A stretch of DNA of 64,000 nt, taken from assembly GCF_014635665.1 (NCBI RefSeq), contig NZ_BMDG01000016.1:1-64000 (forward strand), read 5' to 3'. The first letter of the stretch is position 1. The number at the start of each line of letters is the position of its first letter. Below, piece after piece: positions 3,259 through 26,567 of the stretch. This stretch comes from Isoptericola cucumis (lineage in GTDB: Bacteria; Actinomycetota; Actinomycetes; Actinomycetales; Cellulomonadaceae). The notes under the pieces were generated by a model. The model saw only the letters and a list, made by a program, of their open reading frames with translations, did not search any database and was not told the origin of the DNA. The position numbers and the translations under genes are program-made.

Positions 3259-4143
3259 TCAGCCCGCCGTCGCTGGCGACGCGGCCGCGACCGCGTGCCG
3301 CTGCCGGCCCAGGCCCTCGATCTCCAGCTCGACGACGTCACCGTCGGCCAGGTACGGGAAGCGGCCGGACAGCGCGACGCCCTCGGGCGTGCCGGTGCAG
3401 ATCAGATCGCCGGGCTCGAGCGTCATGTACTGCGACAGGTGGTGCACGATCGCCGCGACGTCGAAGATCATGTCAGCGGTCGAGGAGTCCTGCCGCGGCT
3501 CGCCGTTCACCCACGACCGCAGCCGCAGGCTGCCGGGCTCGACCTCGTCCGCGGGGACGAGGGCCGGGCCGGTGGGCAGGAAGCCCGGGCCGCACTTGCC
3601 CTTGGACCACTGGCCGAGGGAGTCCTCGAGCTGCCACGCGCGCTCGCTCACGTCGTCGACCACGGTGTACCCCGCGACGTGCTCGAGAGCCTCGTCGACC
3701 GACGACAGGTAGCCGGCCCGCCTGCCGACGACGATCGCGAGCTCGACCTCCCAGTCGACCTTCTGGGCGCCGGGCGGCAGCGGCACGGTGTCGTCCGGGC
3801 CGACCACGGTGTTGGGGTGCTTGAAGAAGATGATCGGCAGGCGCGGCGGCTCGGCGCCCGACTCGCGCGCGTGCGCGGCGTAGTTCTGGCCCACGCACAC
3901 GACGGCGGCGGGCCGCGCGATCGGCGCCCCGCGGCGCAGCGCGTCGGCGCCGTCGAGCACGGGCAGCTCGCCTGCGGCCAGCGCGGCGCGGGTGCGCGCG
4001 ACGCCGTCGGCCGCGAGGAACGCGCCGTCGACGTCGCGGCTGCCGTCGATGCCGGCCACCAGGGGGCGCAGGTCGTAGGTGACGCCGTCGTGAGTGACGG
4101 CGGGGATCTCCTGGCCCACGGGGCCCAGGCGGAGCAGCTGCAT
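3259..4143 (-). CDS. Fumarylacetoacetate hydrolase-family protein, probable 2,4-diketo-3-deoxy-L-fuconate hydrolase
   Basis: The 294-residue protein has an FAH domain with CVGQNYAAHARESG, the metal-binding DWEVELAIVVGR (Glu-X-Glu) and LICTGTPEGV motifs. In the non-phosphorylating L-fucose pathway a member of this family cleaves 2,4-diketo-3-deoxy-L-fuconate to pyruvate and lactate. That assignment is inferred from the adjacent mutarotase, two dehydrogenases, lactonase and fucosidase. The ATG start is preceded by a suitable RBS region; an in-frame upstream extension reaches G-rich intergenic DNA and is unlikely to be coding. A generic acylpyruvase role is the alternative. Confidence 0.85.
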   Translation of the reverse strand: MQLLRLGPVGQEIPAVTHDGVTYDLRPLVAGIDGSRDVDGAFLAADGVARTRAALAAGELPVLDGADALRRGAPIARPAAVVCVGQNYAAHARESGAEPPRLPIIFFKHPNTVVGPDDTVPLPPGAQKVDWEVELAIVVGRRAGYLSSVDEALEHVAGYTVVDDVSERAWQLEDSLGQWSKGKCGPGFLPTGPALVPADEVEPGSLRLRSWVNGEPRQDSSTADMIFDVAAIVHHLSQYMTLEPGDLICTGTPEGVALSGRFPYLADGDVVELEIEGLGRQRHAVAAASPATAG

Positions 4144-4239
4144 CAGTGTCCTCGTTCTTCGTCGGGAGAGATCCGACCCTTCCAGCACGCCATCTCGGAC
4201 GTTTGCAGGCGTCGAGACGTCCAGCATGACGTTCTCGAA

Positions 4240-4291
4240 GGGTAGGGGGGCGGGTCGGGGGCGCGAGCGGATGGGTGGATGGGCGGGTGGG
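4240..4291 (+). other. Two G-quadruplex-forming G-run clusters
   Basis: On the + strand, GGG-TA-GGGGGG-C-GGG-TC-GGGGG (4240-4261) gives four G-runs with 1-2 nt loops. A second set follows with GGG at 4273, 4281, 4285 and 4289. Both lie in the 155-bp gap between the FAH gene and the aldo/keto reductase gene, on the strand opposite their coding strand. Confidence 0.6.
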
Positions 4292-4298
4292 TGGTGCT

Positions 4299-5336
4299 TC
4301 AGGCGAAAGCGTCGGGGTGGGCGTCGGGGGCGAGCAGGCCGGCCCCGACGAGGGCGGTCCACAGGTCGGGGGGCACGACGGCGGTGTGCCGGGCGACGGC
4401 CTCGCGCACCTGGTCGGGGGTGCGCAGCCCGACGACGGTGCTCGCGACCGCGGGATGGCTGCGCACGTACGCGAGCGCCGCCTCCGGCAGGGTGACGCCG
4501 TGCTCGGCGCAGACGGCGGCGACGCGCCGCGTCCGCTCCAGCAGGGCGGGCGGGGCCTGCACGTAGTCGTACGTCGCGTCGTCGGGCGGCACGTCTCGGG
4601 CCAGCAGGCCCGAGTTGTAGACGCCGGCGACGACGACGGCCACGCCCCGCTCGGCCGCGAGCGGCAGCAAGTCGGTCAGGGCCGGCTGCTCCAGCAGCGT
4701 GAACCGCCCGGCGCACATGACCACGTCCACGTCGGCGTCGCGCACGAACCGCGCGAGCATCGCGGACTGGTTCATCCCGGCCCCGATCGCGCCGACCACA
4801 CCCTGCTCGCGCAGCTCCACGAGCGCCGGGAGGGCCTCGGCGAATGCCTGCTCCTCATGGTCGTCCGGGTCGTGCAGGTACACGACGTCGAGGCGGTCCA
4901 GGCCCGTGCGCTCCAGGCTGGACTCGAGCGAGCGCAGGATCCCGTCGCGGGAGAAGTCCCAGACGCGGCGCACGTCGGCGGGGACGTCGAACATGTCCGG
5001 GTCGCGCTCGTGGGCCGTCTCGGGCGACGGCACCAGCAGCCGGCCGACCTTCGTGGAGACGACGTACTCGTCGCGCGCGCGGGCGGCCAGGCTCGCGCCG
5101 AGACGCCGCTCGGACAGGCCCAGCCCGTAGTGCGGCGCGGTGTCGAAGTACCGGACCCCGGCCTCCCACGCGACGTCGAACGCGGCCTGCGTCTCGGCGT
5201 CCGTCGTCGGCCGGTACAGGTTGCCCGCCTGCGCGGCCCCGTAGCCCAGGCTCGTCAGCCGCACGCCGGTGGCGCGGACCTCCCGGGCCGGCATCGTCGT
5301 CGTGGCGGCCGCCTCCTCGTGCCGTGCCGCGCTCAC
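4299..5336 (-). CDS. Aldo/keto reductase, probable L-fucose (D-threo-aldose) 1-dehydrogenase
   Basis: The 345-residue TIM-barrel oxidoreductase carries the AKR signature DTAPHYGLGLSERRLG (catalytic Asp and Tyr) and the motif YLHDPDDHEEQ; STKVGR holds the catalytic Lys. It resembles NAD(P)-dependent D-threo-aldose 1-dehydrogenases that oxidise L-fucose to L-fuconolactone, which suits the downstream lactonase. The GTG start (5334-5336) overlaps the SDR stop codon as GTGA, favouring it over the internal ATG at 5294. It belongs to the lactonase-SDR-AKR operon. Sugar specificity is inferred from context. Confidence 0.85.
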   Translation of the reverse strand: MSAARHEEAAATTTMPAREVRATGVRLTSLGYGAAQAGNLYRPTTDAETQAAFDVAWEAGVRYFDTAPHYGLGLSERRLGASLAARARDEYVVSTKVGRLLVPSPETAHERDPDMFDVPADVRRVWDFSRDGILRSLESSLERTGLDRLDVVYLHDPDDHEEQAFAEALPALVELREQGVVGAIGAGMNQSAMLARFVRDADVDVVMCAGRFTLLEQPALTDLLPLAAERGVAVVVAGVYNSGLLARDVPPDDATYDYVQAPPALLERTRRVAAVCAEHGVTLPEAALAYVRSHPAVASTVVGLRTPDQVREAVARHTAVVPPDLWTALVGAGLLAPDAHPDAFA

Positions 5337-6112
5337 GGCTGCTGCGGCGGGCGCACCCGCAGGTCGTGCATGCCGCCGTCGACAGCGAGCGCGGTGCCGG
5401 TGGTCGCCGTCGCGAGCGGGCTCGCCAGGTAGCACACGGCGTGCGCCACGGCCTCGGGGCTCACGAGCTTCCCGGTGGGCTGGCGCGCCTCGAGGGCGGC
5501 GCGCTCCGCGGCGGGGTCGTCGGCGGCGTCCAGGAGCCGGCCCACCCACGGCGTGTCGACGGTGCCCGGGTTCACGCAGGTGACGCGGATGCCCTCGCGC
5601 ACGTGGTCGGCCGCCATCGCGAGCGTGAGCGCCTGCACGGCGCCCTTGCTCGCGGAGTACAGCGCGCGCGACGGCAGCCCGGACCACGACGCGATCGACG
5701 CGGTGTTGACCACGGCCGCGTGCTCGGAGGCGCGCAGGTGGTCCAGCGCGGCCCGTGTGACGCGGACGATGCCGAGCACGTTGACGTCGAGCACGCGCAG
5801 CCACTCGGCGTCGTCGTTGTCCGCCACGGTGCCCTGCGCGCCGATGCCGGCGTTGTTGACGACGACGTCGATGCCGCCCATCGCGGCCGCGGCCGCGTCG
5901 ACGGCCCGGCGCACCGCGCCGTCGTCGGTCACGTCGGCGATCTCGGCCCCGGCGCCGGCCGGGACGCCGTCTGAGGTGCGGTCGATCGCGACGACGCGGG
6001 CACCGCGGGCGAGCATCGCCGTCACGACGGCGGCGCCGATGCCGGACGCGCCGCCGGTGACGATCGCGCGGATGCCGTCGAGCTCGGGCGGGAGTGCGGT
6101 CGGGACGGTCAC
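5333..6112 (-). CDS. SDR-family oxidoreductase, probable 2-keto-3-deoxy-L-fuconate dehydrogenase
   Basis: The 259-residue classical short-chain dehydrogenase has the Rossmann motif TGGASGIG (~19-26), NNAGIG, the catalytic Ser region NTASIASW and YSASKGAV (Tyr-X3-Lys), and a C-terminal GTALAVDGGM. In L-fucose oxidation an SDR converts 2-keto-3-deoxy-L-fuconate to the 2,4-diketo acid, the substrate of the FAH-family hydrolase nearby. Its GTG start overlaps the lactonase stop (GTGA) and its own stop overlaps the AKR start the same way, so the three are translationally coupled. It could instead be the L-fucose dehydrogenase. Confidence 0.85.
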   Translation of the reverse strand: MTVPTALPPELDGIRAIVTGGASGIGAAVVTAMLARGARVVAIDRTSDGVPAGAGAEIADVTDDGAVRRAVDAAAAAMGGIDVVVNNAGIGAQGTVADNDDAEWLRVLDVNVLGIVRVTRAALDHLRASEHAAVVNTASIASWSGLPSRALYSASKGAVQALTLAMAADHVREGIRVTCVNPGTVDTPWVGRLLDAADDPAAERAALEARQPTGKLVSPEAVAHAVCYLASPLATATTGTALAVDGGMHDLRVRPPQQP

Positions 6113-7083
6113 AGGGGGTCCTCCTGGTGAGCGGGGGTCGTGGCGGGTGCGGTGGCGGGTACGGGCCGGCTCGTGCTCGGGCCGGGCTCCAGCCGGTAGG
6201 TGCGGGTCGCGGTGCCGGCGAGCACGGCCGCCCGCTCGTCGCCGGTGAGGCCGGCGACCAGCTCGCGGGCGGCGTCGAGCCACCGGTCGTAGCGGGAGGC
6301 GAGCAGGCAGACGGGCCAGTCGGAGCCGAACATCAGCCGGCCGGGCCCGAAGACGTCAAGGGCGTGGTCGGCGACGGGGCGCAGGTCCGCGACCGTCCAG
6401 CGGTCCCAGTCCGCCTCGGTGACGAGCCCGGACAGCTTGGCGACGACGTTGGGCCGCGCGGCGAGGTCGGCGAGGTCGCGACGCCAGGCGTCGAGTGCGG
6501 ACGGGTCGCCGGACGCTCCGCCGGGCGTGCCACCGGACATCGCGGTGGCGACCGGCGGCTTGCCGAGGTGGTCGAGGACGAACGTCACGTCGGGCAGCGC
6601 CGACGCGAGCCGGGCGCAGGACGCGAGCTGATGGTCGCGCACGACGAGGTCGAACGGCAGGCCGGCGGCGCCGACGGCGGCGATGCCGGCCCGGACGTCC
6701 GGGCGGTCGAGGTAGGCGGGGTCGGTCTCGTCCTGCACCATCGTGCGGACGCCGACCAGGCGCTCCCCGCCCGGGCCGGCGCGCAGGGCCGCGAGCCGGT
6801 CGGCGAGGTCGGGGGCGAAGAGGTCGGCCCAGCCCACCACGCCGGCGATCCCGGCCGCGCGGCCCTCCGCCGACGTGGCGGTGGCGAGCAGGTCCACGGT
6901 CTCCGCCCAGCGGCTCACGGTCTGCACGACGACGGTCGCGTCGACGCCGGTGGCCGCTGCGCGCAGGTCGGCGGGCGTGAAGTCGGCGTCGATCGCCGCC
7001 ATCGTGGCAGGGTCGACCCAGGGTTGGGGGGTACGGTCCCGCACCCACAGGTGATGATGGGCGTCGACGACGACGTCAGGCAT
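6109..7083 (-). CDS. Amidohydrolase-family lactonase, probable L-fuconolactonase
   Basis: The 324-residue protein is an amidohydrolase-2 family enzyme: the metal motif DAHHHLWVRD is near the N-terminus, with VRDHQL, FVLDHLGKPP and MFGSDWPVC further on, the arrangement seen in L-fuconolactone and L-rhamnono-lactone hydrolases. It would open L-fuconolactone to L-fuconate in the cytosol. It heads the minus-strand operon. The ATG at 7083 is the natural start (MPDVVVDAHHH). About residue 180 there is a Gly/Ser-rich insertion (SGGTPGGASGDPS). Confidence 0.87.
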   Translation of the reverse strand: MPDVVVDAHHHLWVRDRTPQPWVDPATMAAIDADFTPADLRAAATGVDATVVVQTVSRWAETVDLLATATSAEGRAAGIAGVVGWADLFAPDLADRLAALRAGPGGERLVGVRTMVQDETDPAYLDRPDVRAGIAAVGAAGLPFDLVVRDHQLASCARLASALPDVTFVLDHLGKPPVATAMSGGTPGGASGDPSALDAWRRDLADLAARPNVVAKLSGLVTEADWDRWTVADLRPVADHALDVFGPGRLMFGSDWPVCLLASRYDRWLDAARELVAGLTGDERAAVLAGTATRTYRLEPGPSTSRPVPATAPATTPAHQEDPL

Positions 7084-10350: not shown

Positions 10351-12051
10351 GTGCCCACGTCGTCCAGCCCCGCGTCCGGCACCGTGTCCGCGCATGTCGC
10401 CCGCACGCTCGCCCAGCACGTCGACCACGTCTTCGGCGTCATGGGCAACGGCAACGCCTGGTTCCTCGACTCCCTCGAGCGTTCGACGACGGCCCGCTTC
10501 ACCGCCGTCCGCCACGAGGCGGGCGGGGTCGTGGCGGCGGACGCCTACTTCCGCGCGGCGGGCCGCATCGCGGCCGCGACGGTCACCTACGGCGCCGGCT
10601 TCACCAACACGCTCACCGCGCTCGCGGAGGCCGCGCAGGCCCGGGTGCCGCTGGTGCTGCTCGCCGGCGACGAGCCGACCTCCGGGCCGCGCCCGTGGGA
10701 CGTGGACCAGATCGCCCTCGCGGCGGCCGTCGGCGCGCGCACGTATACCGTCGGCCGCGCGGACGCCGCCGCGACCACGGTCATCGCCATCGAGCACTCG
10801 CTGACCTACCGGGTGCCGGTCGTGCTCGCGATCCCCTACGACGTCGCCGCGCTGGAGGCCGGGCCCGTCCCCGAGGCGCCGGAGCCGGCGCTGCCCGCCC
10901 CCCTCGCCCCGTCCGGCCCCTTCGACGCCGCCGCGATCACCGACCTCGCCCGGCACCTCGCAGGCGCCGAGCGGCCGCTGCTGGTCGCGGGCCGCGGCGC
11001 GTGGCTCGCCGGCGCGGGCGAGGCGCTCGGCGAGCTCGCCGAGGCGACCGGGGCCCTGACCGCGACGACGGCACTGGGCCGCGGCGTCTTCCCCGACGGC
11101 CGCTACGACCTCGGCGTCGCGGGCGGCTTCGGGGCCGAGGGCGCGATGGCGCTGGTGCGGGAGGCGGACGTCGCGGTCGTGCTCGGCGCGTCGCTCAACC
11201 AGTTCACGATGCGCTTCGGCGAGCTGTTCTCCCCCGGCACCCGGGTGGTCCAGGTCGACGTCGCGGCGACGGCGACGCACCGGCACGTGGGCGGGTTCGT
11301 GCGGGGCGACGCCGCGCTCGTGGCCCGCGCCCTCGTCGACGAGCTCAGCGCCCTGGGGGCGTCGCCGTCGGGCTGGCGCGAGTCGGTGGACGCCACCGTG
11401 GGTGTCGCCGCCGCGCGCGAGCACGAGCCGGGCCCGGCCGACGGGCTCGCCCCGGACGGACGGCTCGACCCCCGCGCCGTCGCCCACCGGCTCGGCGCGC
11501 TGCTCCCGGAGGACCGCGTCGTCGTCTCGGACGGCGGCCACTTCATCGGCTGGGCCAACATGTACTGGCCGGTCGCGTCGCCCGACCGGATGATGATGGT
11601 CGGCACCGCCTACCAGTCCATCGGGCTGGGCTTCCCCAGCGTCGCGGGGGCCGCGGCCGCCCTCCCTGGCTCCGCCGTCGTGCTCACGACCGGCGACGGG
11701 GGCGGCCTCATGGCCCTGGCCGACCTGGAGACCGCGGTCCGCACGGCCGGCGGGCGGGGGATCGCGGTCGTGTGGAACGACGCCGTCTACGGCGCCGAGG
11801 TGCACGTGTACGGGCGACAGGGGCTCGCCGAGGAGCCGATGCGCATCCCCGAGACCGACTTCGCGGCGCTCGCCGCAGCGGTCGGGGCGGAGGGCGTCGT
11901 CGTGCGCTCGCTCGCCGACCTCGACCGGCTCGCGTCGTGGACGGCCGAGCCCGTCGACGAGCGCCGGTTCCTCATGCTCGACTGCCGCGTCTCCCCCACC
12001 GTCGTCGCCCCGTACCAGGAGGAGATCCTGCGGGTGAATCTCGGCCGGTGA
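10351..12051 (+). CDS. Thiamine-pyrophosphate-dependent enzyme (acetolactate synthase-like)
   Basis: The 566-residue protein has the three-domain TPP-enzyme layout: N-terminal pyrimidine-binding domain with the conserved Glu (AVRHEAGG), a central domain (~195-330), and a C-terminal PP-binding domain with TGDGGGLMAL and WNDAVYGAEV. It resembles ALS/benzoylformate-decarboxylase relatives, but substrate residues cannot be assigned. The GTG start follows a good RBS (AGGAGG, 10340-10345). It stands alone, with no ilvN-like small subunit nearby, so a biosynthetic acetolactate synthase role is unlikely. The 289-bp upstream region contains a TATAGT hexamer but no clear promoter pair. Confidence 0.87.
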   Translation: MPTSSSPASGTVSAHVARTLAQHVDHVFGVMGNGNAWFLDSLERSTTARFTAVRHEAGGVVAADAYFRAAGRIAAATVTYGAGFTNTLTALAEAAQARVPLVLLAGDEPTSGPRPWDVDQIALAAAVGARTYTVGRADAAATTVIAIEHSLTYRVPVVLAIPYDVAALEAGPVPEAPEPALPAPLAPSGPFDAAAITDLARHLAGAERPLLVAGRGAWLAGAGEALGELAEATGALTATTALGRGVFPDGRYDLGVAGGFGAEGAMALVREADVAVVLGASLNQFTMRFGELFSPGTRVVQVDVAATATHRHVGGFVRGDAALVARALVDELSALGASPSGWRESVDATVGVAAAREHEPGPADGLAPDGRLDPRAVAHRLGALLPEDRVVVSDGGHFIGWANMYWPVASPDRMMMVGTAYQSIGLGFPSVAGAAAALPGSAVVLTTGDGGGLMALADLETAVRTAGGRGIAVVWNDAVYGAEVHVYGRQGLAEEPMRIPETDFAALAAAVGAEGVVVRSLADLDRLASWTAEPVDERRFLMLDCRVSPTVVAPYQEEILRVNLGR

Positions 12052-13507: not shown

Positions 13508-15406
13508 TCACGACCCCGCGCGCAGGGCGCCCTCGAAGAACTCCCCCAGCTCCTCGGTGGCGTCGAGCGGCAGGACGTGCGCCACGTACTGGTCGGGCCG
13601 GACGACGACGACCACGCCGCCTCGGTCGAGGCCGCGCAGGTCGAAGACGTCGTCGGGCACCTCCTCGGACGTGCCGGCGGCATAGACCTTCTCGTAGTCG
13701 ACGAGCTCGAACGGCCCGACCCGGGGCAGGAAGGCCTGCGGCACCCGGCCGACGTCGACCGCGGTGTGGTCCTGCTGGTAGACGACCTTGACGTCGAACC
13801 AGGCGTCGGGGTCGAGGCCGTCGGGCGTGGCCGCCAGCGGCGAGCGGGGCGACGTCGCGACCCACTCGGCCCACCGCTCCAGCGCCGAGGGCTGCCCGGG
13901 TGCCGGCGCGTCGGCGAAGGCGTAGATCCGCCAGCGCCCGTCGGCACGGTGGTGGTGGCCCAGGTGCACCGGGTTGGCGTCCGCGACCCGCACGACCGGG
14001 GCGGAGCGGAACCGCTTGCCGACCGGGAAGCCCGTGGCGAGGCGCTGGTGGGTCGCCGGCCCCACGATCATCGACGGCTGGTACTCCGTCATGAAGCCGG
14101 CGGGGAACTCCGCCGTGCGCACGTAGAAGTCCTCCAGCTCGGACGGCGAGTCGAACTCCTCCGGCTTCTTCGCCATCATCGTCGACCACTCGCGGTCGAA
14201 GTCGATGAGGTCCTTCGCCACGACGTGCCGCTCGGCGGAGTACGTCGCGAGCAGGCTCTCCGGGGCGCGCCCGTCGAGCACGTGGCCCAGCTTCCAGCCG
14301 ATGTTGAAGCCGTCCTGCATCGAGACGTTCATCCCCTGCCCGGCCTTGGCGCTGTGCGTGTGGCACGCGTCGCCGGTGATGAAGACGCGCGGCGTGCGGG
14401 TGCCGGCCTCCCGGGTGGGCACGTCGTCGAACCGGTCGGTGAGCCGGTGGCCCACCTCGTACACGCTGTGCCACGCGACGTCCTTCACGTCGAGCGTGTA
14501 GGGCGTGAGGATCTCGTTGGCCTTGGCGATGATCTGGTCGATCGTGGTGGCACGCACGGCGTGGTTGTCGCCGGTGGGCACCTCGCCCAGGTCGACGTAC
14601 ATGCGGAACAGGTAGCCGCCCTCGCGCGGGATGAGCAGGATGTTGCCCGCCTCGGACTGGATCGAGCACTTGGTGCGGATGTCCGGGAAGTCGGTGACGG
14701 CCAGCACGTCCATGACGCCCCACGCATGGTTCGCGGGGCTGCCCATGTGCTGCGCGCCGATCGCCGCGCGCACGCCGCTGCGCGCGCCGTCCGCGCCGAC
14801 GACGTAGCGGGCGCGCACGGTGCGGCGGACGCCGTCGTGCTCCCCCGCGCACCCCTCGAGCGTCACGACGACCGGGTGGGTGCCGGAGTCCTCGACCTGC
14901 AGGCCGACGAACTCCCATCCGTAGTCCGGGCGCAGGCGCGTGGGGGCGTTCGCCGCGGCCTCGGCGAAGTAGTCGAGGACGCGCGCCTGGTTGACGATGA
15001 GGTGCGGGAACTCGCTGACGCCCGACGGGTCGTCGACGGGGCGCGCGGCGCGCACGATGTGCGCGACGTTCTCCGGGTCCGGCTTCCAGAACGCCATCTC
15101 CGTGATGCGGTACGCCTCGGCGACGATGCGCTCGGCGAACCCGAACGCCTGGAACGTCTCGACGCTGCGGGCCTGGATGCCGTCGGCCTGGCCGATCTCC
15201 AGCCGGCCGCCGCGCCGCTCGACGAGGCGCGTCGTGACGTCCGGGAACTGCGCGAGCTGCGCGGCGGCGACCATGCCGGCCGGCCCGGACCCGACGATCA
15301 GGACGTCGACGACGTCGGGAAGCTCGTCGGGCCGGTCCACGCCGGTGCCGGCGGGCGGCTGGACCGACGGGTCTCCCGACACGTAGCCGTGGTGGTGGAA
15401 CTGCAC
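13508..15406 (-). CDS. FAD-dependent aromatic hydroxylase (3-hydroxybenzoate 4-monooxygenase/phenol 2-monooxygenase-like)
   Basis: The 632-residue flavoprotein has the N-terminal FAD fold (DVLIVGSGPAGMVAAAQL, ~33-50), the DG motif (VVGADGARSGVR), the second FAD motif (VFITGDACHTHSAKAGQGMN), and a C-terminal thioredoxin-like domain typical of phenol hydroxylases. Its start (MQFHHHGY) and length resemble MobA-type 3-hydroxybenzoate 4-hydroxylase (639 residues in Comamonas), which makes protocatechuate with NADPH and O2. It is divergent from an IclR regulator with two operator-like boxes between them (15476-15514). No protocatechuate ring-cleavage genes are adjacent; phenol or resorcinol as substrate remains possible. 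Confidence 0.88.
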   Translation of the reverse strand: MQFHHHGYVSGDPSVQPPAGTGVDRPDELPDVVDVLIVGSGPAGMVAAAQLAQFPDVTTRLVERRGGRLEIGQADGIQARSVETFQAFGFAERIVAEAYRITEMAFWKPDPENVAHIVRAARPVDDPSGVSEFPHLIVNQARVLDYFAEAAANAPTRLRPDYGWEFVGLQVEDSGTHPVVVTLEGCAGEHDGVRRTVRARYVVGADGARSGVRAAIGAQHMGSPANHAWGVMDVLAVTDFPDIRTKCSIQSEAGNILLIPREGGYLFRMYVDLGEVPTGDNHAVRATTIDQIIAKANEILTPYTLDVKDVAWHSVYEVGHRLTDRFDDVPTREAGTRTPRVFITGDACHTHSAKAGQGMNVSMQDGFNIGWKLGHVLDGRAPESLLATYSAERHVVAKDLIDFDREWSTMMAKKPEEFDSPSELEDFYVRTAEFPAGFMTEYQPSMIVGPATHQRLATGFPVGKRFRSAPVVRVADANPVHLGHHHRADGRWRIYAFADAPAPGQPSALERWAEWVATSPRSPLAATPDGLDPDAWFDVKVVYQQDHTAVDVGRVPQAFLPRVGPFELVDYEKVYAAGTSEEVPDDVFDLRGLDRGGVVVVVRPDQYVAHVLPLDATEELGEFFEGALRAGS

Positions 15407-18584: not shown

Positions 18585-19967
18585 TCAGGCCCTGCCGACG
18601 CCGTAGATCGGGCTGGCGGACTGCTCGGCCTCGTGCTCGGGTCCGAGCGGGATGCCGGTGCGGTCGCGCAGCAGGAGCGTGGCGGCGAACGCGACGACCA
18701 TGACGCCCGCGATGTAGTACGCGACGGACGTCGCCGTCCCCGTGGTCTGCACGAGCCAGGCCGCGATCGTCGGGGCGAACGCGCCGCCCAGGATGGCGCC
18801 GATGGCGTACGTGATCGACACCCCCGAGTAGCGGATCGACGCCGGGAAGAGCTCGGTGAAGTACGCCGCCTGCTGCCCGTACGTGAACCCGTTGCCCACG
18901 GCGAAGAGGGAGACACCGAGGAACAGCAGCCACGGGTCCCCGGTGTTCACCAGGGGGAACAGCAGGAACACGGTGGCGAGGAAGGCGATCCAGCCGATGA
19001 TGTAGGTGTTCCGGCGCCCGATCCGGTCCGACAGGGCGCCCGCCGCGAACGTGCACACCAGCCAGACGACGGACGCGCCCGCCACCGCGAGCAGCACGGG
19101 GGTGCGGTCCATCCCGACGAGCCCGCCGTCGGCGACCGGGGTGGTCGCGTAGTTCTGCAGGTACCCGCCGGTGGTCATGTAGCCGGCGGCGTTGTTGCCC
19201 GCGAAGGTGAGCGCGGCGAGCAGCACGAGCAGCCAGTGCTTGCGGAAGAGCGTGAGGATCGGGGTCTTCGCCGCGGCCTTCTTCTCGGCGATCTCGAGGA
19301 ACACCGGGCTCTCCTCCACCCGGCGGCGCACCATGATGCCGACGCCGATGAGCACCACGCTCAGCAGGAACGGGATGCGCCAGCCCCACGCGACGAACGC
19401 GTCGCCGGGCGAGATCACCCCGGTCATGAGCGCGAGCACCCCGGAGGCCAGCAGCAGGCCGACGGGGACGCCGATCTGCGGGAAGGCGCCCATCCGGCCA
19501 CGCCGCCCGGCCGGGGCGTGCTCGACGGCCATGAGCACGGCGCCGCCCCACTCCCCGCCGGTGGACAGACCCTGCAGGATGCGCAGCAGCACGAGCAGCA
19601 CCGGTGCGGCGATGCCGATCGTCTCGTAGGTGGGCAGCAGGCCGATCAGGGTGGTGGCCCCGCCCATGAGCATCAGGGTGACGACGAGCATGGCCTTGCG
19701 GCCGATCTTGTCGCCGAAGTGCCCGGCGAGGAACGCGCCGAGGGGCCGGAAGAGGAAGCTGATGCCGACGGTCGCGAACGCCAGGAGCGTCCCGATCGAG
19801 GAGCCGGCCGGCTCGAAGAAGAGCGTGCCGAAGACGAGCCCGGCAGCGCTGGCGTAGAGGAAGAAGTCGTACCACTCGATGGTGGTACCGATGACGGTCG
19901 CGAACGCGACGCGCCGCATCTCGCGACGCTCGGTGTCGCTGGGGGTGGCTGCAGTGCCGGTGGTCAT
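18585..19967 (-). CDS. MFS transporter of the metabolite:H+ symporter (MHS) family
   Basis: The 460-residue protein has 12 predicted membrane segments and MHS/ShiA-ProP features: an N-terminal EWYDFFLYASAAGLVF in helix 1, a RPLGAFLAGHFGDKIGRK loop motif between helices 2 and 3, and STGGEWGGAVLMAVEHAP. Family members import small acids with protons. It is divergent from the homoprotocatechuate operon and shares the palindrome at 20015-20036, so an aromatic acid such as 4-hydroxyphenylacetate or homoprotocatechuate is a plausible but unproven substrate. Confidence 0.9.
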   Translation of the reverse strand: MTTGTAATPSDTERREMRRVAFATVIGTTIEWYDFFLYASAAGLVFGTLFFEPAGSSIGTLLAFATVGISFLFRPLGAFLAGHFGDKIGRKAMLVVTLMLMGGATTLIGLLPTYETIGIAAPVLLVLLRILQGLSTGGEWGGAVLMAVEHAPAGRRGRMGAFPQIGVPVGLLLASGVLALMTGVISPGDAFVAWGWRIPFLLSVVLIGVGIMVRRRVEESPVFLEIAEKKAAAKTPILTLFRKHWLLVLLAALTFAGNNAAGYMTTGGYLQNYATTPVADGGLVGMDRTPVLLAVAGASVVWLVCTFAAGALSDRIGRRNTYIIGWIAFLATVFLLFPLVNTGDPWLLFLGVSLFAVGNGFTYGQQAAYFTELFPASIRYSGVSITYAIGAILGGAFAPTIAAWLVQTTGTATSVAYYIAGVMVVAFAATLLLRDRTGIPLGPEHEAEQSASPIYGVGRA

Positions 19968-20014: not shown

Positions 20015-20036
20015 TCGTATATCATCCGAGATACGA
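20015..20036. promoter_or_regulatory. Operator-like inverted repeat at the head of the homoprotocatechuate operon
   Basis: TCGTAT-N10-ATACGA is a perfect 6-bp inverted repeat placed between the divergent MHS transporter (start 19967) and the FAH-RraA gene (start 20063). The half-sites CGTAT/ATACG recall GntR-family FadR-type operators, and a GntR regulator is encoded in the operon (21520). Confidence 0.65.
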
Positions 20037-20062: not shown

Positions 20063-21523
20063 GTGCCCGTGGTCATCGACGACCAGCCCAAGCCCGGCAA
20101 GATCATCGCCGTCCACCTCAACTACCCGTCGCGCGCGGCGCAGCGGGGCCGGACGCCGAGCCAGCCCTCCTACTTCCTCAAGCCCGCGTCGTCGCTCGCC
20201 GGCACCGGCGGGACGATCGTGCGCCCGCTCGGCACGGAGCTGCTCGCGTTCGAGGGCGAGGTCGCGATCCGCATCGGCACCGCCGCCCGCTGGGTCTCGC
20301 CGGCCGAGGGCTGGTCGCACGTCGACGCCGTCACGGCGGCGAACGACTTCGGCCTCTACGACCTGCGCGCCGCCGACAAGGGCTCCAACCTGCGCAACAA
20401 GGGCGGCGACGGCTTCACCCCGCTCGGCCCGCGCTGGATCCCCGCGCCCGACGTCGACCCCGCCGGCCTGCGCGTGCGCACCTGGGTGGACGGCGAGCTC
20501 GTCCAGGACGACTCCACCGGCACGCTGCTCTTCGACTTCGGCCGCCTGGTCGCGGACCTCTCGCAGCACCTCACGCTCGAGCCCGGCGACGTGATCCTCA
20601 CCGGCACGCCCGCCGGGTCGTCGGTCGTCGAGCCGGGCCAGACGGTGGAGGTCGAGGTGGACGCCCCCGAGGCGCCCGGCGCCCCGACCAGCGGCCGCCT
20701 CGTCACCACCGTCACCGCCGGCACGCGCGCGTTCGGCGACTTCGGCTCCCAGCCCTCGGTGGACGACACGCAGCGCGCCGAGGCCTGGGGCACCCCCGCC
20801 CCCGCGCCCGAGCCGGCCTTCGTCCTCACCGACGCGATGCGCGAGCGGTTCGGAGGCGTCGCCGTCGCCACGCTGTCGGCGGTGCTGCGCAAGCGCGGGT
20901 ACACCGACGTCTTCGTCGAGGGCGTGCACGCGGGCCGCCCGGGCGACCGGTTCGTCGGCACCGCCCGCACGCTGCGGCTCATCCCCTTCCGCCCCGACCT
21001 CTTCGCCTCCCACGGCGGCGGCTTCAACGCGCAGAAGCGCGCGTTCGACGCCGTCGAGCCGGGCGAGGTGATCGTGGTCGAGGCGCGCGGCGAGCGCGGC
21101 ACCGGCACCGTGGGCGACGTGCTGGCCCTGCGCGCGCAGGTCCGCGGCGCGGCCGCGATCGTCACCGACGGCGGCGTGCGCGACTCCGAGGCCGTCGCGG
21201 AGATCGGCATCCCCGTGTTCTCGCAGGGCCCGCACCCGTCCGTCCTCGGCCGCAGGCACGTGCCGTGGGAGACCGACGTGACCGTCGCGTGCGGCGGGGC
21301 CGCCGTGCAGCCGGGCGACGTCGTCGTGGGCGACGGCGACGGCGTCCTCGTCATCCCGCCGGCGCTCGTGGCCGAGGTGCTCGCCGAGGCCGAGGCCCAG
21401 GAGGCCGCCGACGCGTGGGTCGCGCAGCAGGTCGCCGCGGGGCACCCCGTCGACGGGCTGTTCCCGATGAACGCCACCTGGCGCGCCCGCTACGAGGCCG
21501 AGACCGCCGGCGGTGCCGGATGA
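20063..21523 (+). CDS. Fusion of a fumarylacetoacetate hydrolase domain and an RraA-like aldolase/decarboxylase domain
   Basis: The 486-residue protein joins an N-terminal FAH-family domain (~1-225; HLNYPSRA, FEGEVAIRIG, VILTGTPAG) to a C-terminal RraA/HMG-aldolase-like domain (~265-450; GGGFNAQKRA, then IVTDGGVRD with the family's Arg-Asp). In homoprotocatechuate meta-cleavage, HpaG uses two FAH halves as decarboxylase and isomerase. Here an RraA fold, whose relatives decarboxylate or retro-aldol cleave 2-keto acids, replaces one half, so it probably performs the decarboxylase/isomerase steps after HpaE. GTG 20063 is preferred; GTG 20069 is also possible. Its stop overlaps the GntR start (ATGA). 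Confidence 0.85.
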   Translation: MPVVIDDQPKPGKIIAVHLNYPSRAAQRGRTPSQPSYFLKPASSLAGTGGTIVRPLGTELLAFEGEVAIRIGTAARWVSPAEGWSHVDAVTAANDFGLYDLRAADKGSNLRNKGGDGFTPLGPRWIPAPDVDPAGLRVRTWVDGELVQDDSTGTLLFDFGRLVADLSQHLTLEPGDVILTGTPAGSSVVEPGQTVEVEVDAPEAPGAPTSGRLVTTVTAGTRAFGDFGSQPSVDDTQRAEAWGTPAPAPEPAFVLTDAMRERFGGVAVATLSAVLRKRGYTDVFVEGVHAGRPGDRFVGTARTLRLIPFRPDLFASHGGGFNAQKRAFDAVEPGEVIVVEARGERGTGTVGDVLALRAQVRGAAAIVTDGGVRDSEAVAEIGIPVFSQGPHPSVLGRRHVPWETDVTVACGGAAVQPGDVVVGDGDGVLVIPPALVAEVLAEAEAQEAADAWVAQQVAAGHPVDGLFPMNATWRARYEAETAGGAG

Positions 21524-22236
21524 GCCTCACGACCGGTCCGACCAGCAGCGTCAGCAAGTCCCAGCGCGCCTACGCGTTCCTGCGCGAGCGGATCGAGGAC
21601 GGCCGGTTCGTCCCCGGCTACCGCCTCGTGCTGGCCCAGCTGGCGGGCGAGCTCGACATGTCGGTGGTGCCGGTCCGGGAGGCGATCCGCCGCCTCGAGG
21701 CGGAGGGCCTGGTGACGTTCGAGCGCAACGTCGGCGCGCAGGTCGCCCTCATCAAGGAGACCGAGTACCTCCACACGATGGAGACCCTCGCCCTGGTGGA
21801 GGGCTTCGCCACGGCCCTGTCCGCCCCGCACCTGACCGCCGCGCAGCTCGAGGCCGCCCGCGCGGTCAACGAGCGGATGCGCCGCTGCCTCGAGGACTTC
21901 GACCCGCACCGCTTCACCGAGCTCAACCTCGAGTTCCACGCGGTGCTGTTCGAGCCGTGCCCCAACCCGCACGTGCTCGACCTCGTCCACCGCGGCTGGC
22001 GCCGGATGAACGTGCTGCGCGACTCGTCGTTCTCGTTCGTGCCCGGCCGGGCGCACGAGTCCGTCGCGGAGCACGACCGCATCCTCGACCTGATCACCGG
22101 CCTGCAGGCGGGCAGCACCGACGTGCTCGACGTCGAGCTGGCCGCCCGCCGCCACCGCACCGCCACCCTCGACGCGGTGCTCGCCTACCAGCAGTCCCGC
22201 CACTCGTCCCACCAGACCACGGAGGTCCAGCGATGA
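21520..22236 (+). CDS. GntR-family (FCD) regulator of the homoprotocatechuate operon
   Basis: The 238-residue protein has a winged helix at ~15-80 (LAQLAGELDMSVVPVREAIRRLEAEGLV) and an FCD effector domain with ELNLEFHAVLFE and EHDRILDLI. Both ends overlap neighbouring genes by ATGA, so it is made in step with the catabolic enzymes, a negative-feedback layout. The palindrome at 20015-20036 is a likely target and the ligand probably a pathway intermediate; both are inferences. Confidence 0.92.
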   Translation: MSLTTGPTSSVSKSQRAYAFLRERIEDGRFVPGYRLVLAQLAGELDMSVVPVREAIRRLEAEGLVTFERNVGAQVALIKETEYLHTMETLALVEGFATALSAPHLTAAQLEAARAVNERMRRCLEDFDPHRFTELNLEFHAVLFEPCPNPHVLDLVHRGWRRMNVLRDSSFSFVPGRAHESVAEHDRILDLITGLQAGSTDVLDVELAARRHRTATLDAVLAYQQSRHSSHQTTEVQR

Positions 22237-23762
22237 CCAGCCACACGTCGGATGCCACCACCCACGTCGGGAACGGGCACCGCCCCGACGGCCTGCCGGA
22301 CCGCATCCGCCACTACGTCGACGGCGCGTTCGTCGACTCCGTCGGCGGCGAGACGTTCGACGTCCTCGACCCGGTGAGCAACGAGACCTACGTCCAGGCC
22401 GCCGCCGGCCAGCAGGCCGACATCGACGCCGCCGTCGCCGCCGCCCGCCGCGCCTTCACCGATGGCCCGTGGCCGAAGATGCTGCCGCGCGAGCGCTCGC
22501 GCGTGCTGCACAAGATCGCCGACCTCGTCGAGTCGCGCGACGCCCGCCTCGCCGAGCTGGAGAGCTTCGACTCCGGCCTGCCCATCACCCAGGCGCTGGG
22601 CCAGGCGCGCCGCGCCGCCGAGAACTTCCGCTTCTTCGCGGACCTGATCGTGGCCCAGGCCGACGACACCTACAAGGTGCCCGGCCGCCAGATCAACTAC
22701 GTCAACCGCAAGCCGATCGGCGTCGCCGGGCTCATCACGCCGTGGAACACGCCGTTCATGCTCGAGTCGTGGAAGCTCGCGCCCGCGCTCGCCACCGGCA
22801 ACACCGTGGTGCTCAAGCCGGCCGAGTTCACGCCGCTCTCCGCGTCGCTGTGGGCGGGGATCTTCGAGGAGGCCGGGCTGCCCCGCGGCGTGTTCAACCT
22901 CGTCAACGGGCTGGGCGAGGAGGCCGGCGACGCGCTGGTCAAGCACCCCGACGTCCCGCTCATCTCGTTCACCGGCGAGAGCAGCACGGGCCAGCTCATC
23001 TTCGCCAACGCCGCCCCGCACCTCAAGGGCCTGTCGATGGAGCTCGGCGGCAAGTCCCCCGCCGTCGTCTTCGCCGACGCCGACCTGGACGCCGCCGTCG
23101 ACGCGACGATCTTCGGCGTCTTCTCCCTCAACGGCGAGCGCTGCACCGCCGGGTCGCGCATCCTCGTCGAGCGCGCCGTGTACGACGAGTTCGTCGAGCG
23201 GTACGCCGCGCAGGCGAAGCGCGTACGCGTGGGCTACCCGCACGACGAGGCCACCGAGGTGGGCGCCCTCGTGCACCCGGAGCACTTCGAGAAGGTGATG
23301 AGCTACGTCGAGCTCGGCAAGTCGGAGGGCCGCCTGGTCGCCGGCGGCGGCCGGCCCGAGGGCTTCGAGACCGGCAACTTCGTGGCCCCCACGGTGTTCG
23401 CCGACGTGAAGCCCGACGCCCGGATCTTCACCGAGGAGATCTTCGGGCCCGTCGTCGCGATCACGCCGTTCGACACCGAGGAAGAGGCGCTCGAGCTCGC
23501 CAACGGCGTGAAGTACGGCCTCGCCGCCTACGTCTGGACCAACGACCTCAAGCGCGCGCACAACTTCTCGCAGGCCGTCGAGGCCGGGATGGTCTGGCTG
23601 AACTCGAACAACGTGCGCGACCTGCGCACCCCGTTCGGCGGCGTCAAGGCCTCCGGCCTGGGCCACGAGGGCGGCTACCGCTCCATCGACTTCTACACCG
23701 ACCAGCAGGCCGTGCACATCACGCTCGGCAAGGTCCACAACCCGACCTTCGGCAAGCACTGA
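22233..23762 (+). CDS. hpaE: 5-carboxymethyl-2-hydroxymuconate semialdehyde dehydrogenase (HpaE)
   Basis: The 509-residue aldehyde dehydrogenase has ITPWNTPFMLESWK, SFTGESSTG (cofactor site), MELGGKSP (general-base Glu) and NGERCTAGSR (catalytic Cys), all in normal spacing. It oxidises the semialdehyde made by ring cleavage of homoprotocatechuate to the dicarboxylate with NAD+. Identification as HpaE rather than another ALDH rests on adjacency to hpaD, hpaH and hpaI. It is 29 bp upstream of hpaD and overlaps the GntR gene by ATGA. The N-terminus is ~20 residues longer than typical. Confidence 0.93.
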   Translation: MTSHTSDATTHVGNGHRPDGLPDRIRHYVDGAFVDSVGGETFDVLDPVSNETYVQAAAGQQADIDAAVAAARRAFTDGPWPKMLPRERSRVLHKIADLVESRDARLAELESFDSGLPITQALGQARRAAENFRFFADLIVAQADDTYKVPGRQINYVNRKPIGVAGLITPWNTPFMLESWKLAPALATGNTVVLKPAEFTPLSASLWAGIFEEAGLPRGVFNLVNGLGEEAGDALVKHPDVPLISFTGESSTGQLIFANAAPHLKGLSMELGGKSPAVVFADADLDAAVDATIFGVFSLNGERCTAGSRILVERAVYDEFVERYAAQAKRVRVGYPHDEATEVGALVHPEHFEKVMSYVELGKSEGRLVAGGGRPEGFETGNFVAPTVFADVKPDARIFTEEIFGPVVAITPFDTEEEALELANGVKYGLAAYVWTNDLKRAHNFSQAVEAGMVWLNSNNVRDLRTPFGGVKASGLGHEGGYRSIDFYTDQQAVHITLGKVHNPTFGKH

Positions 23763-23791: not shown

Positions 23792-24952
23792 ATGACCCAC
23801 AAGAACGACCGCACCCTCACCTCCTCGGGCTTCTACGTCTCGCAGGAGGCCCCGATCCACTCCGACAACCCGATCGCGACGCCGTCGAGCCCCGCGCCGG
23901 ACATCCTGCGCTGCGCGTACATGGAGCTCGTCGTCACGGACCTCGCGGCCTCCCGCCGGTTCTACGTGGACGTGCTCGGCCTGTACGTCACCGAGGAGGA
24001 CGAGAACAGCGTCTACCTGCGCTCCACCGAGGAGTTCATCCACCACAACCTGGTGCTGCGCCAGGGTGACGTGGCCGCGGTGGCCGCGTTCTCCTACCGC
24101 GTGCGCACGCCGGAGGACCTCGACAAGGCCGAGGCGTTCTACGGCGAGCTCGGCTGCGACGTGCGCCGGGACCCGGCGGGCTTCACGAGGGGCATCGGCG
24201 ACTCGGTGCGCGTGGTCGACCCGCTCGGCTTCCCGTACGAGTTCTTCCACGACACCACCCACGTCGAGCGGCTGTCGTGGCGTTACGACCTGCACACCCC
24301 CGGCGAGCTGGTGCGCCTGGACCACTTCAACCAGGTCACCCCGGACGTGCCGCGGGCCGTGAAGTTCATGCAGGACCTCGGCTTCCGCGTCACCGAGGAC
24401 ATCCAGGACGACGAGGGCACCGTCTACGCGGCGTGGATGCGCCGCAAGCCGACCGTGCACGACACCGCGATGACCGGCGGCGACGGCCCCCGCATGCACC
24501 ACATGGCGTGGTCGACCCACGAGAAGCACAACATCCTCGCGATCTGCGACAAGCTCGGCGCCCTGCGGATCTCCGACTGCATCGAGCGTGGCCCCGGGCG
24601 CCACGGCGTCTCCAACGCGTTCTACCTGTACCTGCGCGACCCCGACGGGCACCGCGTCGAGATCTACACGCAGGACTACTACACCGGCGACCCGGACAAC
24701 CCGGTCGTCACGTGGGACGTGCACGACAACCAGCGCCGCGACTGGTGGGGCAACCCCGTCGTGCCGAGCTGGTACACCGAGGCGTCGCTCGTGCTGGACC
24801 TCGACGGCAACCCGCAGCCCGTCGTCGCCCGCACCGACGACTCCGAGATGGAGGTGACCGTCGGCGCCGACGGCTTCTCCTACACGCGCCGGGCCGATGA
24901 CGGCACAGGCGACGGCGGCGTGCAGGGCTTCAAGCTCGGGGCGACGCTGTGA
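23792..24952 (+). CDS. hpaD: 3,4-dihydroxyphenylacetate (homoprotocatechuate) 2,3-dioxygenase
   Basis: The 386-residue type I extradiol dioxygenase has two vicinal-oxygen-chelate modules (~40-150 and ~175-300). Metal ligands are visible as His in LDHFNQVTPD, His in RMHHMAWST and Glu in HRVEIYTQDYY. It resembles the Brevibacterium fuscum enzyme (365 residues), which uses Fe(II) and O2 to open the ring. Relative to that length it carries an N-terminal extension and an acidic/Gly C-terminal tail (DGTGDGGVQGF). Confidence 0.95.
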   Translation: MTHKNDRTLTSSGFYVSQEAPIHSDNPIATPSSPAPDILRCAYMELVVTDLAASRRFYVDVLGLYVTEEDENSVYLRSTEEFIHHNLVLRQGDVAAVAAFSYRVRTPEDLDKAEAFYGELGCDVRRDPAGFTRGIGDSVRVVDPLGFPYEFFHDTTHVERLSWRYDLHTPGELVRLDHFNQVTPDVPRAVKFMQDLGFRVTEDIQDDEGTVYAAWMRRKPTVHDTAMTGGDGPRMHHMAWSTHEKHNILAICDKLGALRISDCIERGPGRHGVSNAFYLYLRDPDGHRVEIYTQDYYTGDPDNPVVTWDVHDNQRRDWWGNPVVPSWYTEASLVLDLDGNPQPVVARTDDSEMEVTVGADGFSYTRRADDGTGDGGVQGFKLGATL

Positions 24953-25770
24953 CGGCCGGGGACACGTCCCCCGACGGCGCCCGCACCCTCGACGACGCGG
25001 CCGTCGTCGCCATCGCCGACGAGCTCGCCGAGGCCGACCGCACCCGCACGCCCGTGCCCCTCCTGACGGCGCGGCACCCGGGGATGACCGTGGCCGACGC
25101 CTACGCCGTGCAGCGCACGTGGCGCGACCGCGGGGAGGCCCGCGGCCGCCGCGTCGTCGGGCACAAGATCGGCCTGACGTCGAAGGCCATGCAGGCCGCG
25201 ACGGGCATCACCGAGCCCGACTACGGCGTCATCTTCGACGACATGGTGCTCGAGTCGGGCGGCGTCGTGGAGCACGCCGCGTACTCGAACGTGCGCGTCG
25301 AGGTGGAGCTCGCCTTCGTCCTCGCCTTCCCGCTGGAAGGGCCGGGCGTGACCGTCACCGACGTGCTGCGCGCCACCGAGCGTGTGGTGCCCGCGCTGGA
25401 GATCCTCGACGCGCGCGTCGAGATGCCGGGGCGCACGATCGTCGACACGATCAGCGACAACGCCGCCATGGGTGCCATGGTGGTGGGCGGTCGGCCCGTG
25501 CGGCCCGACGACGTCGACCTGCGCTGGGTGTCCGCCCTGCTGTACCGCAACGAGACCATCGAGGAGACGGGCGTCGCCGCGGGCGTGCTGGGGCACCCCG
25601 CGCAGGGTGTCGCCTGGCTCGCGAACAAGCTGGCCGCGCACGGCGACTCGCTCGCCGCGGGCGAGACCGTCCTGTCCGGGTCGTTCACCCGCCCCACCTG
25701 GGTGCACCCGGGCGACACCGTGCACGCCGACTACGGGACCCTGGGGGCCGTGACATGCCGCTTCGTGTGA
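24949..25770 (+). CDS. hpaH: 2-oxo-hept-4-ene-1,7-dioate hydratase
   Basis: The 273-residue protein belongs to the hydratase/decarboxylase branch of the FAH superfamily: [23 protein letters not shown] (metal-binding Glu residues), [11 protein letters not shown] and [11 protein letters not shown] are characteristic. It adds water to 2-oxohept-ene-dioate, giving the substrate of HpaI. GTG start overlaps the hpaD stop (GTGA) and its 3' end overlaps hpaI by 16 bp, indicating tight coupling. Confidence 0.93.
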
Positions 25771-26567
25771 CCACCGACCGTTCGTTCGCCGCCGTCCTCG
25801 CCGACGCCGCCGCCGAGGGGCGGGCCGCCTCCGGCGCCTGGTCGTCCATGGGCAGCCCGGTCGCGGCCGAGATCCTCGCCGGCAGCGGCCTGGACGTCGT
25901 CCTGGTGGACGGCGAGCACGGGCCGAACGACCTGACCACCGTCCTCGCGCAGCTCCAGGCCACGGCCGCCTACCCGGTCGCGACGCTGGTGCGGGTGCCG
26001 TCGGGCGACCCGGTGGGCCTCAAGCGGGTGCTCGACCTGGGGGCCACGAACGTGCTGGTGCCCATGGTCGATTCCGTCGCCCAGGCGACCGACGCCGTCC
26101 GCGCCGTGCGCTACCCGCCCGCCGGTGTCCGCGGCGTGGGCAGCGCGCTGGCCCGGTCGTCGCGGTGGAACCGGGTGCCCGGGTACCTGGGCGGCGCCGA
26201 CGACGGGATCACGCTTGTCGTGCAGCTCGAGACGCGCGCCGCGATCGCCGACGCCGAGGCGATCGCCGCGGTCGACGGGGTGGGTGCGGTGCTGGTCGGG
26301 CCGGCCGACCTCGCGGCGTCGCTCGGCCACCTCGGCCAGCAGGACCACCCCGAGGTCACCGGCGCGGTGCTCGGCGCGATCGACGCGTGCCGCCGGGCAG
26401 GGACGCCGGTCGGCGTGAACGCGTTCGACCCGGTCATGGCGGAGAAGTACGTCGCCGCGGGCGCCGCGTACGTCGTCGTCGGGGCCGACGTCACCCTCCT
26501 CGCGCGCGGGGCGGAGAAGCTCGGCACGCAGACGGCGGGTTTCACTCCCGCCCCGGACTTTGGTTAG
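25755..26567 (+). CDS. hpaI: 4-hydroxy-2-oxoheptane-1,7-dioate aldolase
   Basis: The 270-residue class II pyruvate aldolase shows the HpaI/GarL motifs: VDGEHGPND (catalytic His region), LVPMVDS, RYPPAGVRGVG, VVQLETRAAI (metal-binding Glu) and VGPADLAASLGH (metal-binding Asp). It cleaves the 4-hydroxy-2-oxo acid to pyruvate and succinic semialdehyde, ending the ring-cleavage pathway. Its TAG stop (26565-26567) lies inside the iron-box-like palindrome that precedes the siderophore importer genes. Confidence 0.94.
   Translation: MPLRVTTDRSFAAVLADAAAEGRAASGAWSSMGSPVAAEILAGSGLDVVLVDGEHGPNDLTTVLAQLQATAAYPVATLVRVPSGDPVGLKRVLDLGATNVLVPMVDSVAQATDAVRAVRYPPAGVRGVGSALARSSRWNRVPGYLGGADDGITLVVQLETRAAIADAEAIAAVDGVGAVLVGPADLAASLGHLGQQDHPEVTGAVLGAIDACRRAGTPVGVNAFDPVMAEKYVAAGAAYVVVGADVTLLARGAEKLGTQTAGFTPAPDFG

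Follow-up and report, generated by a model that had tools for sequence, protein, structure and literature searches.

Overall, our data are best explained by a protein in which a fumarylacetoacetate hydrolase (FAH) domain is fused to an RraA-like domain, and which serves homoprotocatechuate degradation in actinobacteria as the counterpart of HpaG. The gene stands first in an hpa operon of Isoptericola cucumis, within the 64,000-nucleotide stretch of contig NZ_BMDG01000016.1 analysed here (the window), and across the order the co-occurrence of this fusion with the dioxygenase HpaD is near-perfect. As to the two halves, we believe there is about an even chance, judging from sequence comparison, that the FAH half is the OPET decarboxylase and the RraA half the HHDD isomerase.

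The fusion gene begins with GTG and encodes 486 residues plus a stop codon. Pfam recognises FAA_hydrolase at residues 13-217 (158.7 bits, cut-off 23.9) and the RraA-like family PF03737 at residues 271-430 (107.4 bits, cut-off 24.5), and residues 9-482 score 786.5 bits, over a cut-off of 444, against the NCBIfam family NF009399/PRK12764, 'fumarylacetoacetate hydrolase family protein', which has the same two-domain architecture. The FAH-RraA fusion that the initial annotation placed in the position of HpaG is therefore real and already catalogued, as a member of NF009399, under a family name that assigns no reaction or pathway step; a literature search, with most subscription-journal papers beyond its reach, found no study of it. 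The predicted structure contains two confident domains (mean pLDDT 89.4), whose mutual arrangement is unsure because the pTM is 0.54.

Downstream, the order is gntR-hpaE-hpaD-hpaH-hpaI, and from the fusion through hpaI the genes overlap or lie no more than about 30 bp apart (Table 1). HpaE (658 bits, cut-off 638), HpaD (430 bits, cut-off 321) and HpaH (356 bits, cut-off 351) all exceed the thresholds of their equivalog models, and HpaI, at 283 bits, finds its best match in its own model yet stays under the cut-off of 369; the four hpa genes read from the sequence at the outset are thus present, the last with this qualification. The arrangement recalls that of Erwinia, where an FAH protein is likewise the first gene, ahead of hpaE, hpaD, hpaH and hpaI. 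The Erwinia cluster is classical, running FAH protein-hpaE-hpaD-isomerase-hpaH-hpaI, with HpaF between hpaD and hpaH and with no gntR.

Table 1. Features of the window, in window coordinates.
Feature	Position	Strand	Remarks
Second FAH gene	3259..4143		in a group of genes spanning 3259-7083
Thiamine-diphosphate enzyme	10351..12051		
Flavin monooxygenase, phenol 2-monooxygenase subfamily	13508..15406	-	NF006144, over cut-off
Divergent MFS transporter	18585..19967	-	best NCBIfam match is a metabolite/H+ symporter subfamily, below its cut-off
Inverted repeat TCGTAT-N10-ATACGA	20015..20036	+	TCGTATATCATCCGAGATACGA; just upstream of the fusion; candidate operator
FAH-RraA fusion (NF009399/PRK12764)	20063..21523	+	proposed OPET decarboxylase (FAH half) and HHDD isomerase (RraA half)
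FAH domain, residues 13-217	20099..20713	+	metal triad E64, E66, D95 plus K113; lid R24/Q27 replacing H/E
RraA-like domain, Pfam residues 271-430	20873..21352	+	similarity extends to about residue 482; G351-D352, R373-D374
GntR/FCD regulator	21520..22236	+	
hpaE, CHMS dehydrogenase	22233..23762	+	TIGR02299, over cut-off
hpaD, glyoxalase-fold 3,4-dihydroxyphenylacetate 2,3-dioxygenase	23792..24952	+	TIGR02295, over cut-off
hpaH, hydratase	24949..25770	+	TIGR02312, over cut-off
hpaI, aldolase	25755..26567	+	start possibly 25767; TIGR02311 top match, below cut-off

Neither of the classical parts for the middle of the pathway was found. An intact hpaG or hpaF elsewhere in the genome, the other possible source of these activities considered in the initial annotation, was sought with PF02962, PF01557 and NF011750. 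The CHMI/HpaF family PF02962 has no match in the whole genome (99.96% complete), which bears out the observation that hpaF is not seen; as a positive control, the same model scored 158 bits on an Erwinia plasmid, within its hpa cluster. Against full-length HpaG (NF011750, cut-off 811) the best score in the genome is 162 bits, and the fusion itself reaches 119.7 bits through the C half only and so is not a two-FAH HpaG. PF01557 (E <= 0.001) returns four genes: the fusion, HpaH, the second FAH gene of Table 1, which lies in an L-fucose-type cluster, and an Rv2993c-type gene on contig C3. A second HpaG is ruled out by these searches, and an HpaF hidden inside the operon by the tight spacing of its genes, which leaves no room for one. 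A single 4-OT-type tautomerase (PF01361, 28.6 bits, cut-off 22) is encoded on contig C3 and may act on CHM. In the order as a whole, full HpaG exceeds its cut-off in 0 of the 51 genomes with HpaD, a count that covers the full-length protein, separate HpaG2-type (TIGR02305) genes being covered in the genome of the window only, and CHMI is encoded in 2 of the 198 genomes, never on an hpa contig.

At the same time, our data speak against the idea that the RraA domain makes up specifically for the missing HpaF. Four actinobacterial genomes with HpaD over cut-off (G276, G228, G254, G305) contain no match to the fusion or to its RraA half at E <= 1e-60, and they too lack HpaF, so that its loss is not peculiar to genomes with the fusion; HpaF is likewise missing from G303 and G526, which also have HpaD over cut-off, and from G560, where HpaD is below it. 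In addition, PMC12718150 describes HpaF as accelerating rather than essential: decarboxylation runs without it and is faster with it, and CHM can isomerise spontaneously.

The survey of the neighbourhood of hpaD suggested at the outset links the fusion with this pathway. Among the 198 genomes of the order, that of the window included, the fusion exceeds its cut-off in 48, which rules out chance or an annotation artefact as its origin, and HpaD does so in 51. In 47 of these 51 the two genes share a contig, with starts 2.5-4.8 kb apart (Fisher p = 1e-39, kinship among the genomes ignored), and among the 147 genomes in which no HpaD exceeds its cut-off, only one (G171) has the fusion, near a contig end. 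The four remaining HpaD genomes (G089, G117, G145, G173) belong to one genus and carry, adjoining HpaD, a stand-alone RraA with 60-64% identity to the RraA half; the HpaD of these four reaches 324-331 bits. Among 396 genomes of the phylum, where the best five and three candidates per genome were scored for HpaD and for the fusion respectively, 13 genomes pass the cut-off for HpaD and 8 that for the fusion, with HpaD and the standard fusion together in seven; G303 pairs HpaD with a stand-alone RraA, and G526 pairs it with a more distant fusion of 619 bits.

A contig search with the stand-alone RraA as query matched at least 594 stretches with at least 446 relatives, of which the best 80 were kept, a sample that is biased because 57 of the 80 loci are Microbacterium. 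Among these best 80 of at least 446, FAH and RraA are fused by our own criterion in 73, and by our own score thresholds hpaE occurs together with hpaD in 72 and hpaH together with hpaI in 75; the five loci without both of the latter are short contigs (L091, L113, L115) or short of one gene (L103, L143). In L166 the FAH and RraA halves lie in different frames. In L115 (3297-4937), a 5.4 kb contig labelled Stenotrophomonas, an Rv2993c-type housekeeping FAH is joined to RraA after leuB-ilvE, a second type of FAH-RraA junction that may be a misassembly or a contamination.

Several other features recur around the cluster. In the same best 80 of at least 446 relatives, a relative of the divergent MFS transporter is near the cluster in 60 loci and one of the flavin monooxygenase, likely the ring hydroxylase of the upper pathway, in 41. 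A relative of the thiamine-diphosphate enzyme recurs in 35 of these 80; this enzyme may use a 2-keto acid to supply the pathway. The inverted repeat upstream of the fusion is a candidate operator for the GntR regulator of the operon: a GTAT-N8..14-ATAC repeat occurs within 300 bp upstream of the FAH domain in 9 of 73 fused named loci, in the full TCGTAT-ATACGA form in seven of the nine, and is absent from 64, compared with a mean of 0.5 of 73 and a maximum of 3 in 50 letter shuffles. Farther away, the group of genes around the second FAH gene also includes aldo-keto reductase-like, SDR-like and amidohydrolase-like genes, named by eye from their translations, and looks like L-fucose catabolism.

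Consider now the FAH half. It scores 132.9 bits against the C-terminal half of HpaG (TIGR02303) and 80.5 bits against the N-terminal half, the former still under the cut-off of 276.4, and it possesses the Glu, Glu, Asp metal triad of the HpaG C-terminal half; both triad glutamates are absent from the HpaG N half when aligned to it. The triad and K113 are kept in all 112 distinct fusion FAH domains, and E64, E66, D95 and K113, together with R373 and D374 of the RraA half, are invariant in 34 aligned fusions. In PMC12718150, the triad-bearing C half of HpcE is taken as the OPET decarboxylase and the N half as the HHDD isomerase; this 2025 assignment of the HpaG halves is described there as structure-based, with the roles called ambiguous. 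The fusion thus resembles HpaG/HpcE (NF011750, TIGR02303, TIGR02305) in being a two-domain protein whose FAH half shares the C-half metal triad, and differs from it in having RraA in place of a second FAH domain, in falling under every HpaG cut-off, and in its lid residues, R/Q rather than H/E. Because the FAH half resembles the decarboxylase half of HpaG, the missing half is the isomerase.

The lid deserves particular attention. Its histidine is replaced by arginine in 111 of the 112 fusion FAH domains (L115 is the exception) and its glutamate by glutamine in 107, with glutamate in the other 5, whereas both residues are kept in the single FAH proteins of L168-L170 and in Erwinia HpaG. We mapped the fusion residues, through HpaG and the published papers, to E71, E73, D102, K123, H30 and E33 of FAHD1, for which PMC7115867 and PMC7116474 make the lysine a proton source and propose that the lid His-Glu dyad, with a water, ketonises the enolate. 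With this dyad changed, the FAH half may need help with ketonisation. The argument is weakened, however, by HpaG-C of the E. coli type, which has the lid dyad and an isomerase partner as well. The seven closest stand-alone FAH relatives (L052-L055, L173, L183, L184; 157-195 bits) have the lid arginine and keep the glutamate. In L053-L055 such a lid-arginine FAH adjoins an HpaE-like dehydrogenase, with no RraA in the stretch (in L052 the dehydrogenase is about 6 kb away), a context that by analogy would fit a lid-arginine FAH acting alone as a decarboxylase. L052-L055 represent another uncharacterised meta-cleavage cluster; L055 also contains MppR-like and glutamine-synthetase-like genes and one resembling extradiol dioxygenases, which at 130 bits stays under the TIGR02298 cut-off.

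The RraA family is known for aldolases, decarboxylases (of oxaloacetate, for instance) and RNase E inhibitors, and relatives of this half of the fusion stabilise and protonate pyruvyl enolates; to our knowledge, there is no established isomerase with the RraA fold. In an alignment with the HMG/CHA aldolase/oxaloacetate decarboxylase (LigK, PDB 3NOJ), G351-D352 and R373-D374 of the fusion correspond to G101-D102 and R123-D124, and across 38 aligned rows, stand-alone copies among them, all four residues are nearly invariant (at least 90%). The fusion shares the RraA-like fold with this enzyme but scores 79.5 bits against TIGR02798, far under its cut-off of 304.5, and one loop differs: G144, T145 and K147 of 3NOJ lie opposite V394, L395 and the conserved R397, within a different invariant motif, HPxVLGRxHxPW. 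According to PMC5065237, Arg-123 of the aldolase stabilises the pyruvate enolate and the enzyme exchanges pyruvate methyl protons. The closest solved relative is RraAS2 of Streptomyces coelicolor (PDB 5X15; 112 bits, TM 0.90 by target length), a stand-alone protein reported as an inhibitor of RNase ES in PMC10126417. An RraA half acting as a regulator or scaffold, like an RNase E inhibitor or an oligomerisation domain, would fit this nearest structure, and yet, given the near-invariance of G351, D352, R373 and D374 and the location of stand-alone copies inside catabolic gene clusters, we regard a non-enzymatic role as highly improbable.

A more serious competitor exchanges the two roles, with RraA as the OPET decarboxylase, perhaps ketonising the dienol as well, and the FAH half as an isomerase of CHM or HHDD. 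RraA-family decarboxylases are known and an RraA-fold isomerase is not, so the chemistry fits this assignment too. The nearest characterised RraA enzymes decarboxylate, the HMG/CHA aldolase also bearing the name oxaloacetate decarboxylase, and the lid histidine is lost from the FAH half. FlDet of Flavobacterium, as presented in PMC8563752, is an RraA-family KDGR dehydratase/decarboxylase that removes water and CO2 from 2-keto-3-deoxyhexarate. It resembles the proposed enzyme, by description, as a catabolic RraA protein that releases CO2 from a 2-keto acid, and differs in substrate and pathway; by our own reasoning its reaction is the same vinylogous beta-keto-acid decarboxylation as that of OPET. 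This closeness and the decarboxylating relatives are why we keep the exchanged assignment in play, as something like a one-in-four prospect. It is opposed by the triad and lysine of decarboxylating FAH enzymes, retained without exception in the fusions, and by the higher score of the FAH half to the decarboxylase than to the isomerase half of HpaG. The initial annotation had allowed RraA either decarboxylation or isomerisation of the OPET intermediate; that it took over one of them still seems reasonable, but with the HpaG decarboxylase signature residing in the FAH half, isomerisation appears the likelier of the two.

A route can be proposed in which the FAH half is the decarboxylase and the RraA half the isomerase. 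The first tautomerisation, from CHM to OPET, would be spontaneous or carried out by one of the two domains. The FAH half would bind OPET through a divalent metal and release CO2 from it to give the dienol HHDD, the role proposed for the C-terminal half of HpaG, and the RraA half, with its aldolase fold, would then ketonise HHDD to OHED for HpaH, replacing the N-terminal isomerase half of HpaG. This role for RraA is favoured by the vacant place of the isomerase, a fold that protonates enolates, the hpaH and hpaI neighbours and the loss of the lid pair. The fusion would also keep decarboxylase and isomerase together, like the OPETD-HHDDI complex of Acinetobacter, in which, according to PMC12718150, both proteins are needed for good decarboxylation.

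In a quick tree of 66 RraA rows, with SH-aLRT as its sole support measure and with one misplaced outgroup row, 10 of the 11 stand-alone rows group with 28 fusions at 95% support, and this nesting among fusions suggests loss of FAH; across the full tree, which also contains the deeper row L171, two changes of the stand-alone label are all that the supported branches require. In nine of the ten nested loci (L056 from G177, L048-L050, L135, L142, L145, L149, L154), RraA adjoins hpaH and hpaI and the stretch lacks hpaE; among them are loci of Streptomyces (L135, L145, L149) and Nocardia (L142, L154). Clusters of this kind, lacking HpaE, would yield no OPET by the known route, which argues against RraA as the OPET decarboxylase. 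G177 has a complete fusion cluster too, on another contig. The Streptomyces and Nocardia loci also contain DUF3500 (PF12006) and amidohydrolase genes, DUF3500 being identified by scan in L135, L142 and L155 and the amidohydrolase in L135, the others by the look of the sequence. L155 and L161 combine the fusion with hpaH, hpaI, two DUF3500 genes and a hydroxylase of the HpaB type (families scanned for L155), and their stretches contain neither hpaE nor hpaD. DUF3500 proteins may be enzymes of aromatic ring breakdown that have so far gone unrecognised. Since FAH genes of other types lie in the same stretches of L142, L145, L154, L155, L161 and L056, the absence of FAH there means that none is fused.

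Four loci, L048-L051, depart further. They combine an HpaD-like dioxygenase, RraA and hpaI, with hpaH in three of the four (L051 has hpaI only), and constitute an unexplained shortened meta-cleavage pathway: their 18 kb stretches contain no FAH relative, with FAH-family genes elsewhere in those genomes, the four genomes have no HpaE over cut-off, and no gene in the stretches accounts for the supply of a stand-alone RraA without HpaE. Their HpaD is barely over the cut-off (324-331 bits against 321) and distant from that of the window (208-216 bits), and the pathway may therefore have another substrate. A strict bond of RraA to hpaH and hpaI is weakened by L051, by L171, where neither gene was found beside RraA, and by L172 (G526), where a DapA-type aldolase (351 bits, below cut-off) stands instead, next to a fusion and HpaE (708 bits). 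Taken together, we offer, with rather less confidence than the division of labour itself, a model in which an RraA-fold domain became a keto-enol isomerase (HHDD to OHED), displacing the isomerase half of HpaG, and after fusion was released at least once and recruited, without HpaE or FAH, by other pathways that use hpaH and hpaI, some of which also include DUF3500 and amidohydrolase genes.

Some genomes with HpaD show no RraA match at E <= 1e-60. In L169 (G254) and L170 (G305), a lone FAH gene exceeds the HpaG-C cut-off of 276 with 306 and 332 bits, respectively. Its neighbours are HpaE, HpaD, a hydroxylase of the HpaB type (scanned for L169) and a DapA-type aldolase, which against TIGR02313 reaches 393 bits in L169, slightly short of the cut-off of 397, and 406 bits in L170; HpaH, HpaI, RraA and HpaG-N were not found in the stretch. 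A separate isomerase is thus not always present, as would be expected were the FAH half to perform both decarboxylation and isomerisation, with RraA placed elsewhere in the pathway, in CHM tautomerisation, which lacks a named enzyme in this HpaF-less genome, or in off-pathway clean-up of keto acids. We consider that arrangement improbable: the fusions have R/Q in the lid where these single HpaG-C proteins have H/E, and the HpaD genomes without an RraA match lack HpaF as well. NahE-type enzymes are hydratase-aldolases, and by inference from them the DapA-type protein would perform both hydration and aldol cleavage. From the mixtures in L169, L170 and L172, the middle and end of the pathway look to be assembled from interchangeable parts.

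A pathway role can now be proposed for a catalogued family without an assigned reaction, one found in roughly a quarter of the genomes of its order. At least three sets of parts appear to serve the middle of the pathway: HpaG with HpaF, a single HpaG-C FAH with a DapA-type aldolase, and FAH-RraA. In this context, the fusion offers a direct test of the role of each HpaG half, and the RraA fold, with its aldolases, decarboxylases and RNase E inhibitors, may gain an isomerase.
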